DNA of 64,000 nucleotides from Saccharothrix syringae (lineage in GTDB: Bacteria > Actinomycetota > Actinomycetes > Mycobacteriales > Pseudonocardiaceae). The notes beneath the pieces are model-generated. The model searched no databases. It was not told the DNA's origin and saw nothing but the letters and a program-made list of their open reading frames with translations. Every line of letters starts with the position of its first letter. Position 1 is the first letter of the stretch. The stretch spans positions 1,674,001-1,738,000 of the forward strand of contig NZ_CP034550.1 of assembly GCF_009498035.1 (NCBI RefSeq). Reading direction: 5' to 3'. Of this stretch, positions 5,196 to 39,817 are shown piece by piece. The position numbers and the translations under genes are program-made.

Positions 5196-5468
5196 GCCCA
5201 CAGCATGACTCGCGCCTGTTGCGGCGTGGTGAAAAGGTGTCCCGGGTCTCCCAACCCCGCGTGTCCTCCACTCGAACACCGCGTGTCCTCCACTCCGACA
5301 CCGGGTGACGGCCGCTGCAACACCGGGTGACGGCCGCTGCAACACCGGGTGAGAGCCGTCGACGTGCCGGAGTGCGACCTGAGCCTTCCGGGTGCGACGG
5401 CACGGCCTGGCGTCGTCGACCCGCGGCGGGCGAACCAGGTCCCCGGCGTCGCCCGCCGATCCCGCCCC
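5196..5468. repeat. repeat-bearing intergenic region upstream of the acyltransferase gene
   Basis: No gene is supported here. Two near-identical units of CGCGTGTCCTCCACTC occur around 5254-5300. They are followed by three copies of a roughly 22-nt unit containing ACACCGGGTGA (about 5297-5352). The first unit type also builds the outer arms of the large palindrome at 11.8 kb, so this looks like a partial or decayed copy of the same element family. The region separates trpD from the acyltransferase gene and must also contain the acyltransferase promoter, which I could not identify. Confidence 0.6.
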
Positions 5469-8926: not shown

Positions 8927-10047
8927 GCGGCGAGAAGCCGACCAACCTGCCCAGCGAGGCGGAACTCGCCGGGATGAGCAGGGACGAGCTGGTCAAGCTC
9001 GGCACCAACCTGGACGGCGTGGAGCTCGTCCACTACGAGGAGCGGTGGCCGGTCAAGGGCACCCGCGCCGAGAAGCGCGCCGAGCGCCTCGTCGCCCTGT
9101 GGTTCCTGATCTCGGCGCTGTCGGGCCTGGCGTTCCTGGTCGCCTTCCTGTGGTGGCCGTGGAAGTACGAGACCCCGCGCACCGACGCGCACTTCCTGTA
9201 CAGCCTGTACACGCCGGTCATCGGCCTGACCCTCGGCCTGGCCGTGGTGGCCCTGGGCGTGGGCGCGCTGCTGTACACGAAGAAGTTCATCCCGGAGGAG
9301 CTGGCCGTCCAGCAGCGCCACGACGGCGGCTCGGCGGAGATCGACAAGGCCACCGTGGTGGCCGAGCTCGCCGACGCGGGCACGCGCAGCACCATCGCCC
9401 GCCGCTCGCTGATCAAGCGCACCGCGGGCCTGGGCGCCGGCGTGTTCGGCCTGGGCGTGCTGGTCCTGCCGCTGGGCAGCCTCGTGCGCGACCCGTGGAA
9501 GAACAGCGACTCCAAGGACTCGCTGTGGCACACCGGCTGGAAGTCGGAGAACGGCGAGAAGGTCTACCTGCGCAACTACACCGGTGACCCGCACGAGGTC
9601 GTGCTGGTGCGCCCGGAGGACGTGGAGGCGGGCGGCTACCTGACCGTGTTCCCGTTCCGGGAGTCCGAGCGGGACGACGAGCACGCCCTCGTCGCCGCGA
9701 CCAAGCGGGTCGACAACCCGGTCCTGCTCCTGCGCTTCCGCCCCGGCCAGCAGATCGTGAAGCGGGCCGGCCAGGAGGACTTCAACTACGGCGACCTGTA
9801 CGCCTATTCCAAGATCTGCACCCACCTCGGGTGCCCGGCGTCGCTCTACGAGCAGCAGACCGGTCTGCTGCTGTGCCCCTGCCACCAGTCGCAGTTCGAC
9901 GTCTTCCACTACGGCAAGCCGCGCTTCGGCCCGGCGACCCGCGCCCTGCCTCAGCTTCCGATCACGGTGGACGAGGACGGATACTTGATTGCCCGCAGCG
10001 ACTTCATCGAGGCTGTGGGTCCGGCGTTCTGGGAGCGTAAGTCATGA
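8923..10047 (+). CDS. qcrA: cytochrome bc1 complex Rieske iron-sulfur subunit
   Basis: QcrA carries the 2Fe-2S cluster that accepts one electron from menaquinol. The first half has three membrane helices, an actinobacterial feature, instead of the single helix of other bacteria. The cluster motifs are CTHLGC (299-304) and CPCH (318-321), so the ligands are Cys299, His301, Cys318 and His321. Cys304 and Cys320 form the usual disulfide. The third helix is preceded by RRSLIKR, a twin-arginine-like motif typical of Rieske export. The gene overlaps qcrC and qcrB by 4 nt each, indicating tight coupling. The length of 374 residues is normal. Confidence 0.97.
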
Positions 10048-11717
10048 GCGGCATCACCACGCCGACCAAGCGGCAAGGGGCGGCTGCCCGTGCGGCCGGC
10101 GGTGCCGCGAAGTGGGCCGACGACCGGTTCCACATGGCCGGCGGCATGCGCAAGCAGCTGAACAAGGTCTTCCCGACCCACTGGTCGTTCCTGCTCGGCG
10201 AGGTCGCGCTCTACAGCTTCATCATCCTGCTGCTGTCGGGCACGTACCTGGCGCTGTTCTTCGACCCCTCCATGGAGGAGGTCATCTACGACGGGACGTT
10301 CCAGAACCTCCAGGGCATCCCGATGTCCCGGGCGTACGAGTCGGCGCTGCAGATCTCGTTCGACGTGCGCGGCGGCCTGTTCGTGCGGCAGGTCCACCAC
10401 TGGGCGGCGCTGCTGTTCATGGGCGCGATCGTCGTGCACATGTTCCGGATCTTCTTCACGGGCGCCTTCCGGCGGCCGCGCGAGATCAACTGGGTCATCG
10501 GCATCGTGCTGTTCATGCTCGGCGCGATCGAGGGCTTCCTCGGCTACTCGCTGCCCGACGACCTGCTGTCCGGCACCGGCCTGCGGGTGATGGCGGGCCT
10601 GCTGCTGTCGTTCCCGGTGGTCGGCACCTGGATCAACTGGCTGGCCTTCGGCGGCGAGTTCCCCGGCACGGAGATCATCCCGCGGTTCTACACGCTGCAC
10701 ATCCTGGTCATCCCGGCCATCATCCTGGCGCTGGTCGCGGCGCACCTGGCGCTGGTCTGGTACCAGAAGCACACGCAGTTCCCGGGCGTGGGCCGCAAGG
10801 AGACCAACGTCGTCGGCGTGCGCATCATGCCGGTGTTCGCGGCCAAGGGCGGCGGCTTCTTCGCCATCGTCGTCGGCATCACGGCCATCATGGGCGGCGT
10901 CTTCCAGATCAACCCGATCTGGAACTTCGGCCCGTACAGCGCGGCCCAGGTGTCGGCGGGCTCCCAGCCCGACTGGTACATGGGCTGGACGGACGGCCTG
11001 GTCCGCATCTGGCCCGCGTGGGAGCTCTACCTGGGCAACTACACGGTGCCGGAGCCGTTCCTGCCGTTCATGCTGGGCCTGCCGCTGCTGACCGGCGTCG
11101 CGGCGGTCTACCCGTGGATCGAGCGGAAGCTGACCAAGGACTACGCGCACCACAACCTGCTCCAGCGGCCGCGCGACGTGCCGGTCCGCACCTCGCTGGG
11201 CGTGATGGCGATCACGTACTTCATGGTGCTGCTGGTGATGGGCGCGAACGACATCTTCGCGTACAAGTTCGACGTCTCGTTGAACGCGACGACGTGGATG
11301 GGCCGGATCGGCCTGCTGGTCCTGCCGCCGCTGGCGTACTTCGCCACCTACCGGCTGTGCATCGGCCTCCAGCGGGCCGACCGCGAGGTGCTGGAGCACG
11401 GCGTGGAGACCGGCATCATCAAGCGGCTGCCGCACGGCGAGTTCATCGAGGTCCACCAGCCGCTGGGCCCGGTGGACGACCACGGCCACCCGCTGCCGCT
11501 GGAGTACCAGGCCGCGCCGGTGCCGAAGAAGATGAACAAGCTGGGGTCGGCCGGGCACCCGGTGCCGGGCAGCTTCCTGACCCCGGACCCGCCGGAGGAG
11601 ACCGCGGCGCTGGCCCGCGCCCGCGCCGAGCGCGGCGTCTCGGCGAACGACTCGCTGACCGGCGAGAACGCCACCGCGGGCGAACTAGCCGGCAAGCCGG
11701 CCCAGCCCGAAGACTGA
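10044..11717 (+). CDS. qcrB: cytochrome bc1 complex cytochrome b subunit
   Basis: QcrB is the membrane core that oxidises menaquinol and binds hemes bL and bH. The 557-residue protein has the family helices and heme-ligand regions, for example [20 protein letters not shown] in the second helix and [20 protein letters not shown] in the fourth. A long hydrophilic C-terminal tail (about 460-557) with Pro-, Glu- and Ala-rich stretches is typical of actinobacterial QcrB. It is the last gene of ctaE-qcrCAB and is followed by a strong hairpin. In mycobacteria this subunit is the target of imidazopyridine inhibitors. Confidence 0.97.
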
Positions 11718-11733
11718 CCAAGCCCAACGCGAA

Positions 11734-11765
11734 GGGCCCGGCACCTGGTGGTGCCGGGCCCTCGC
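11734..11765 (+). terminator. terminator after qcrB
   Basis: A perfect 12-bp stem (11734-11745 with 11750-11761, GGGCCCGGCACC and its complement) with a TGGT loop follows the qcrB stop by 16 nt. Confidence 0.8.
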
Positions 11766-11771
11766 ACATCC

Positions 11772-12003
11772 CGCGTGTCCTCCAGTCCGACCCCGCGTGT
11801 CCTCCACTCGGACACCGCGAGTCGACCCTTCGGGACCGTCGTGTCGAACCTCCAGGACCCCCGAGTTCTACGTTCAGGACCCCTGGCCGGGGCGCGAATG
11901 TGGAACTCGGGGGTCCTGAGCGTTCGACACGACGGGTCTGAGTGTTCGACTCGCGGTGTCTGGGTGGAGGACACGCGGTGTCCGGGTGGAGGACACGCGC
12001 GGG
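11772..12003. repeat. large imperfect palindrome with nested short repeats
   Basis: About 230 nt form a nested inverted repeat. The left arm has two CGCGTGTCCTCCA units, then GTCGTGTCGAAC, then the inner sequence GGACCCCCGAGTTC. The right arm returns GAACTCGGGGGTCC, GTTCGACACGAC, and two units of GGTGGAGGACACGCG. The centre is a spacer of about 40 nt. It lies where qcrB and the Lrp-type gene converge. The inner core is shared with the palindrome at 39.6 kb although the outer units differ, and the outer units recur at 5.25 kb. No coding sequence is supported inside. Confidence 0.8.
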
Positions 12004-12005
12004 GG

Positions 12006-12290
12006 TCAGGAGTCTTCGAGGCCGATGGCGAAGGCGGCGTCGGTGTCGCGCTTGGCGTAGGAGCGGAACGAGATGTGGGTGTCCGTGTTGAGCACGCCGG
12101 GCACCTTGGAGATGCGGCCGGGCACCAGGTCGGCCAGGTCCTCGTGCTTGGCGACCTTCACCAGGGCGATCAGGTCGACGTCGCCCGCGCACGAGTAGAC
12201 CTCGGTGACGCCCTCGATGTCGGCGATCGCCTGCGCCGCGTCCGGGATGGTGTCGGCGGCGGCCTGGATCAGCACGATCGCGGTGATCAC
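12006..12290 (-). CDS. Lrp/AsnC ligand-binding-domain protein (no DNA-binding domain)
   Basis: The 94-residue product is a stand-alone RAM (regulation of amino acid metabolism) domain. It has the betaalphabeta-betaalphabeta order and the typical start ITAIVLIQAAADTIPDAAQA, then GVTEVYSCAGDVDLIALV. It lacks the helix-turn-helix of full Lrp proteins, so it cannot bind DNA alone. It may bind a small ligand or form mixed oligomers with full-length Lrp proteins. GTG 12290 is chosen because AGGAGG lies 7-12 nt upstream. The upstream neighbour is the exonuclease gene on the same strand, 40 nt away. Stand-alone RAM proteins near qcrB recur in actinobacteria. Confidence 0.85.
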   Translation of the reverse strand: MITAIVLIQAAADTIPDAAQAIADIEGVTEVYSCAGDVDLIALVKVAKHEDLADLVPGRISKVPGVLNTDTHISFRSYAKRDTDAAFAIGLEDS

Positions 12291-39631: not shown

Positions 39632-39809
39632 CGCGTGTCATGCCTCCAGACCTCGCGTGTCATGCGCTGAGCCCCGGCGTGTCATGCGCTCAGGACCCCC
39701 GAGTTGGTCATTCAGAGCCGAGCCAGGGCACCTGAATGTGGATTTCGGGGGTGCTGAGTGCATGACACGCGCGGTTTGAGTGCATGACACGCGCGGGCTG
39801 GGGGCATGA
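39632..39809. repeat. imperfect palindrome with nested repeats, second locus
   Basis: The left arm carries three GCGTGTCATGC-type units and then CAGGACCCCCGAGTTGGTCATTC. The right arm returns GAATGTGGATTTCGGGGGTGC, then two GTGCATGACACGCGC units and a GCATGAC. The core CAGGACCCCCGAGTT is the same as in the palindrome at 11.8 kb, but the outer unit is GTGTCATGC instead of GTGTCCTCC. It fills the gap between the convergent 3' ends of the phosphofructokinase and DUF2891 genes. Confidence 0.8.
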
Positions 39810-39817
39810 CTCGCCGG

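Follow-up and report, generated by a model that had tools for sequence, protein, structure and literature searches.

BOX-type repeats are dispersed, intergenic elements built of modules in variable number. Repeats of the REP type (REP, BIME and REPIN) are described in parts of PMC3733652 and PMC3116915 as high-copy, extragenic sequences that lie at gene 3' ends and in convergent gaps, grouped and often in inverted pairs. For the DNA uptake sequences (DUS) of Neisseriaceae, sections of PMC3630211 report dialects, accumulation in the core genome and inverted pairs at terminators, often with intragenic copies. The element considered here lies in a 64,000-nt stretch of the Saccharothrix syringae chromosome (NZ_CP034550.1, positions 1,674,001 to 1,738,000; the window), where it separates qcrB from an lrp-type gene, and is one copy of a non-coding dispersed family present in scattered Pseudonocardiaceae genomes. 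Our preferred reading, to which we give somewhat less than an even chance, is that of a REP-like dispersed repeat served by a putative trans-acting factor that reads its words.

With a codon-usage gene caller written for this analysis, qcrB (cytochrome b subunit, with cytochrome b domains) is placed at 10044..11717 on the forward strand and the lrp-type gene (94 aa, Lrp/AsnC ligand-binding domain) at 12006..12290 on the reverse strand, the two converging on the array and the lrp stop codon lying 6 nt from it. The qcrB terminator, a perfect 13-bp hairpin at 11733..11762 (forward strand), is outside the array, and such a hairpin is also present in the corresponding gaps of relatives. The DNA from this terminator to the lrp stop codon holds a strong imperfect palindrome, real as the preliminary description had it at 11772..12003: inverted arms at 11772-11882 and 11889-11999 are 82% complementary across a 6-nt gap (11883-11888), the best ungapped inverted repeat (11772-11999) pairs 91 of 114 positions and scores 68, where 292 random 230-nt pieces of the window score 17 at most, and the RNA fold of 11720-12010, qcrB terminator included, reaches -248 kcal/mol (z = -22), equalled by none of 200 shuffles. 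The outer and inner layers noted earlier are both present, but they are units of a single 22-nt array. Each arm consists of five tandem 22-nt units in the order A-A-C-D-E from outside inward, then mirrored. The left arm (11774..11883, forward strand) comprises A at 11774-11795, A at 11796-11817, C at 11818-11839, D at 11840-11861 and E at 11862-11883; the right arm (11888..11997, reverse strand) repeats that order with A at 11997-11976, A at 11975-11954, C at 11953-11932, D at 11931-11910 and E at 11909-11888, leaving a strandless centre of 11884..11887 between the two E units where arms defined by complementarity leave 6 nt. The A unit begins CGTGTCCTCC, C begins CGAGTCGAAC (the left arm has CGAGTCGACC instead), D begins CGTGTCGAAC and E begins CGAGTTCYAC. 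The core GGACCCCCGAGTTC, matched exactly at 11855..11868 (forward strand, the end of D and start of E) and at 11903..11916 (reverse strand), is thus the border of the two innermost units. It had been said that the element holds no coding frame; mechanical ORFs do overlap it, but the gene caller places no gene within it.

Two further arrays occur in the window. Behind the pfkA terminator, three B units (CGTGTCATGC) and one degenerate E form a left arm at 39634..39719 (forward strand), facing a right arm of three B units with a decayed E at 39750..39813 (reverse strand). The recurrence of the inner core reported at 39.7 kb is found there once, though with one mismatch and in one arm only. Ordinary terminator hairpins persist beside two of the window's arrays, those at qcrB and at pfkA. 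The third array is decayed, with two A units at 5260..5301 (forward strand) followed by 22-nt repeats of other sequence to about 5362; within 5260-5362 these later repeats (GGGTGACGGCCGCTGCAACACC) differ strongly from the A units and are perhaps a new or foreign unit type. A G000 'array' listed at 34.7 kb (G000 being the genome that carries the window) falls inside a called gene and was taken as a false positive. Searched in the window only, with two mismatches allowed, the 14-mer GGACCCCCGAGTTC gives 4 matches, a number reached in 5 of 100 shuffles; the core alone is not significant within the window, and its significance comes from the whole genome.

There, in 10.93 Mb, the exact core GGACCCCCGAGTT occurs 36 + 34 times on the two strands, where the reversed-pattern control gives 0 + 1, and the core proposed to recur elsewhere is accordingly present in 70 exact copies against a single control match. 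A word-specific two-unit pattern matches 232 + 182 times and a word-free one 239 + 190 times (429 in all), each with a control of 0; these counts are lower bounds, as the fixed-frame pattern skips units starting GAGAGTC (L100 and L118 in G013). The unit is directional and 22 bp long: CGWGTC, a three-letter word, C and a semi-conserved tail, repeated at 22-bp steps. A profile of 184 units begins CGWGTC. Its positions 2-6 and its words, position 10 included, were fixed by the way the units were selected; of the positions left free, 1 has C (0.99), 13 has T or C, 14 has C (0.91), 16 has G (0.85) and 20 has C (0.81). The unit is not palindromic as a whole. The unit types GTGTCCTCC, GTGTCATGC, GAGTCGAAC and GTGTCGAAC follow a fixed order toward the E unit, so that unit strings read in the unit direction as runs of a or b, then c, d and E, with tandem forms such as bbbcdEaaa. 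The idea of a family with a fixed core and variable flanks is borne out, the innermost part being nearly fixed and the outer units differing between loci. Nor are the arms all identical, which had been named as the mark of an ordinary insertion sequence or MITE: arrays vary in unit number and order. Outer arms are not unique to each locus, however, since a few unit types recur in fixed order toward E; and the suggestion that the core is copied alone fits poorly, because what recurs is the whole ordered arm, whether single, in tandem, inward or outward.

The phase of the units is strict. Between intact same-strand neighbours no more than 60 nt apart (n = 117), the distance is 22 nt in 100 cases, 44 in 15, and 23 and 45 in one each, and single-arm and tandem arrays keep the 22-nt phase without an inverted partner. 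Arrays hold 170 of 187 units; of the 17 lone units, 12 are in genes. In an even sample of 100 evenly spaced 20-kb stretches of G000 plus the window (2.06 Mb), 34 arrays were parsed: 18 single or tandem, 10 inward, 5 outward and 1 complex. Sixteen lie between convergent genes, 16 between co-directional genes and 2 at a stretch edge, with none of the 34 inside genes or between divergent genes, in a sample whose gaps longer than 60 nt (n = 875) include 264 divergent and 146 convergent ones. The median distance from an array to the nearest stop codon is 6 nt (at most 60 nt in 28 of 34) and to the nearest start 748 nt, the stop being nearer than the start in 32 of 34; individual distances may err, as gene ends come from the codon-usage caller and overlaps of up to 60 nt were set to zero.

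Arrays are also crowded in one half of the chromosome. The contig opens with a group of genes among which are dnaA, dnaN, a recF-like gene and gyrB. Of the evenly spaced stretches, the 52 situated before 2.75 Mb or after 8.0 Mb hold 30 of the 31 arrays and the remaining 48 hold 1 (p = 5e-8 when weighted by length and 4e-7 when weighted by available 3' ends, with limits chosen after the data were seen). In G015, whose origin was inferred from qcrB synteny, 62 loci with the GAAC word number 9, 15, 10, 14, 5, 5, 1, 1, 1 and 1 per successive 0.5 Mb from that origin, 48 of them within 2 Mb. Such crowding, together with species words and inverted pairs at gene ends, parallels DUS as presented in sections of PMC3630211, and would suit host-serving chromosomal sites retained at core-region gene ends for their benefit to the cell, each unit being read by a species-specific DUS-like receptor or by a chromosome-organising protein. 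We consider this explanation unlikely: nearly all units are in arrays, and none of the sampled arrays lies in a gene, whereas the same sections (PMC3630211) describe DUS as often intragenic; in addition, few matches or none are present in most genomes of the family.

The species words themselves were compared across the genus (25 genomes), where the word-free pattern matches in 16 genomes, with three or more matches in 14 and a control of 0 in all 25; G013 has arrays although the two-unit pattern misses them. The three-letter word differs between species. GAAC pairs predominate in G005 (161 of 194 pairs), G015 (97/117), G022 (40/43) and G002 (68/86), make up part of the pairs in G001 (125/298) and G018 (37/78), and are scarce in G024 (5/234) and G003 (0/78). 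Pairs of the ATGC/CTCC type account for 330 of 429 in G000 and nowhere else in the genus exceed 8 per genome. Neither kind is used to any extent by G024, G007, G020 and G021; G003 has 0 GAAC and 8 ATGC/CTCC pairs of 78, and G019 has 0 and 5 of 24; in this group GTAC/GTAA, CCAAC, CTAC or GTGC take the place of both. The E unit or a close variant is found at loci of most array-bearing relatives examined and is absent from one G019 array. Beyond the genus, a sample of 220 Pseudonocardiaceae genomes, 13 of them of this genus, contains 28 with at least 10 matches (8 of the 28 from this genus), spread over 12 of 46 genera, and the array-rich genomes often sit beside congeners with no matches. Any match at all is found in 92 of the 220, a figure that overstates presence, with control counts reaching 3. 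Of 21 further loci fetched there, 4 hold a chain of three or more units and one, L359 (G078), has two units that fill a convergent gap; these, together with L106 and L107, are the arrays examined outside the genus. The array of L361 is not beside a called stop codon.

The strict phase and the species words point to a reader acting at the level of DNA, a step from phase and dialect to reader that we infer, while the place of the arrays, their hairpin strength and the matching word classes of their arms speak for a role in RNA. On the latter view the arrays would be bidirectional terminators or 3'-end stabilisers, selection keeping the long hairpin between convergent genes. Arrays do sit at stop codons, and of the 16 convergent gaps 6 have the array no more than 20 nt from both stop codons, so that little other DNA remains in which to terminate. 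In ten gaps whose arrays are inward or outward, the fold reaches -0.63 to -0.85 kcal/mol per nt, stronger than in 107 other convergent gaps (mean -0.57, not length-matched). Among 82 arms of G000 (those of the even sample and of 30 non-random loci, duplicates removed), which form 27 inverted pairs, both arms have the same outer word class in 18 of 18 inward pairs and in 8 of 9 outward ones, agreement reached by 0 of 2000 and 0.4% of permutations, respectively. A few doubly compensated changes are seen between the relatives G024 and G007 (4 or 6 pairs by direction), but broken pairs outnumber them (28 or 32). Moreover, 18 of 34 arrays are single or tandem, and in five gaps that hold a single array the fold reaches -0.43 to -0.61 per nt, which is not stronger than elsewhere. 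Inward arms of one locus are no more alike than arms of the same unit string across loci (0.812 in 7 pairs vs 0.838 in 54 comparisons), nor appreciably are outward arms (0.795 vs 0.788, 2 each), and the window's array, the copy checked, lacks an adjacent T-run despite its G+C-rich hairpin. The hairpin thus looks secondary, and not the preferred target of selection, because single arms are common and pairing is not preferentially kept; we regard the terminator explanation as rather unlikely. At L127 (G000:1296100-1297100), an inward palindrome has at its centre an ordinary terminator-like hairpin (GGCCCCGCACC...GGTGCGGGGCC), as though the arms had been set on either side of a pre-existing terminator.

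An array of this kind at qcrB/lrp occurs only in G000 among the 25 genomes of the genus, which implies either a gain in this lineage or loss elsewhere. At this site G019 carries a 22-nt array too, but a different one, and the other 23 genomes have the terminator hairpin followed by a short gap or unrelated DNA (the contig of G001 ends before lrp); the gap of G005 is occupied by another palindromic repeat, in which CGTGTCATCC words occur four times without the 22-nt phase. No target-site duplication was recognised by eye at the one site compared. Two of the three array junctions of the window (that of the third array and pfkA) also hold arrays in G024, with other words and another arrangement, and in the one G002 stretch that included the junction sought, no array was found there. 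Long palindromic repeats of other kinds occupy the same junctions in other species (CGTGTCATCC in L245 of G005; CGTATGGCCTG in L266-L269 of G006 and L257 of G017), and gaps at such junctions look like hot spots for different elements. Behind qcrB in Kutzneria and Amycolatopsis (L020, L026, L033) there are long near-perfect hairpins of the GAAGGCCCCCTTC or GAAGGGCCCCTTC type, another style of repeat in these sister genera.

All three arrays of an 80-kb G024 stretch are shared with G007. Across four array pairs, the fourth chosen because both members were search matches, 86 of 684 aligned array sites differ vs 55 of 3200 in the 400-nt flanks, a sevenfold contrast that is partly gene constraint, because the flanks are mostly coding. 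Arrays of the two genomes differ by the gain or loss of a 22-nt unit and by mirrored base changes, and at G024:C1:4492835-4492928 a tandem run of 22-nt units that do not differ in sequence (four identical two-unit rows, which overlap) suggests a recent expansion of the array. Turnover of this sort, identical tandem units included, could be expected if slippage, hairpin template switching and ectopic gene conversion made the arrays as a satellite with neither reader nor function. That explanation appears distinctly improbable to us, given that intact units show almost no 1-nt phase errors and that the ordered word grammar recurs at unlinked loci; it also leaves a new site such as qcrB/lrp unexplained, because conversion needs prior homology.

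A second dispersed repeat was encountered alongside the arrays: a hairpin cassette, conserved and some 125 nt long (GATTTGACATGGG...CCCATGTCAAATC). It lies immediately upstream of a tandem array at 6 of 6 distinct G000 loci (L139:14360-14500, L142, L143, L144, L224 and L132) and matches in 13 of the 25 genomes of the genus, one marginally; of 27 cassette loci fetched from relatives, only 6 have two or more chained units no farther than 400 nt away. A riboswitch was considered for the cassette and set aside, no Rfam match being obtained at gathering.

Under the preferred reading, the unit would be the recognition site of a putative trans-acting DNA factor, either an enzyme that mobilises or copies the arms or a binding protein with sites that recombination spreads. 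Such a factor would hold the units to their 22-bp phase, close to two helical turns, and would drive genome-wide replacement of the word. Arms would accumulate at the 3' ends of genes, as neither genes nor promoters would tolerate them, and inverted arms would give, as a by-product, a long transcript hairpin that may act as a shared 3' end. This reading is favoured by the copy number with clean controls, the phase, the species words, the position at stop codons, the lineage-specific qcrB/lrp copy, the patchy distribution over 12 of 46 genera and the phased single arms. Against it stand the mobilising enzyme and recurrent neighbour that were sought and not found, the target-site duplication not seen at one site, the 12 lone units in genes, and the scarcity away from dnaA, which should be less for a purely selfish element. 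It is tempting to speculate further that the arrays are a sequence-coded recognition system, in which each species' own word, set in a 22-bp frame at gene ends of the dnaA half, would be an uptake, recombination or organising signal read by a co-evolving protein and so a species tag; we think this a doubtful proposition. In any case, a genome-wide change of word between close relatives, with frame and place kept, is hard to explain without a trans-acting reader, and the word offers a handle for fishing out the reading factor, with genera that mix array-rich and array-free species as a natural comparison. Should the arrays prove to end transcripts or to mark the core half of the chromosome, they would bear on the insulation of convergent genes and on chromosome compartments in antibiotic-producing actinomycetes.

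Searches for a known identity or partner were as follows. The RAYT/Y1 transposase family (PF01797) gave 0 matches in G000, its control matching in 5 of 14 named genomes. Among 209 neighbouring proteins no clear recurrent neighbour emerged, similarities across loci being weak (29 to 51% identity). Rfam, searched up to E = 1, returned eight rows far below gathering scores, one an sRNA over the qcrB terminator and seven microRNA precursors over the array, as a long hairpin would give. Plasmid and phage collections, from which records very near the window's genome may be absent, gave no match, and no earlier description of these arrays was found in the open-access literature searched. LexA boxes were also considered, prompted by TCGAAC...GTTCG.

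Set against described systems, the arrays resemble intrinsic terminators in their place just behind stop codons and in the hairpin strength of inverted arrays, but differ in having words shared genome-wide, tandem units and single-arm forms, and no T-run at the window's copy. They are like BOX-type repeats in modularity, except that all modules are 22-bp variants of one unit and the arms are inverted. With the DUS of Neisseriaceae they share species dialects in a fixed frame, a bias to core regions and inverted pairs at gene ends; many DUS copies are lone and intragenic, however, whereas here almost all units are in 22-bp arrays outside genes. The likeness to REP/BIME/REPIN extends to high copy number, extragenic location at gene 3' ends and in convergent gaps, grouping in inverted folding pairs, and the preference for convergent or co-directional placement (16 + 16 of 34 arrays). 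The arrays depart from those systems in their 22-bp direct repeats, their long phased arrays and their several ordered words. The unit profile shows no 20-40 bp palindromic unit with a GTAG or CGTC tag, and G000 is without a RAYT match. While thus failing two defining features of REP/BIME, the tagged palindromic unit and the RAYT, the family works most like those elements.
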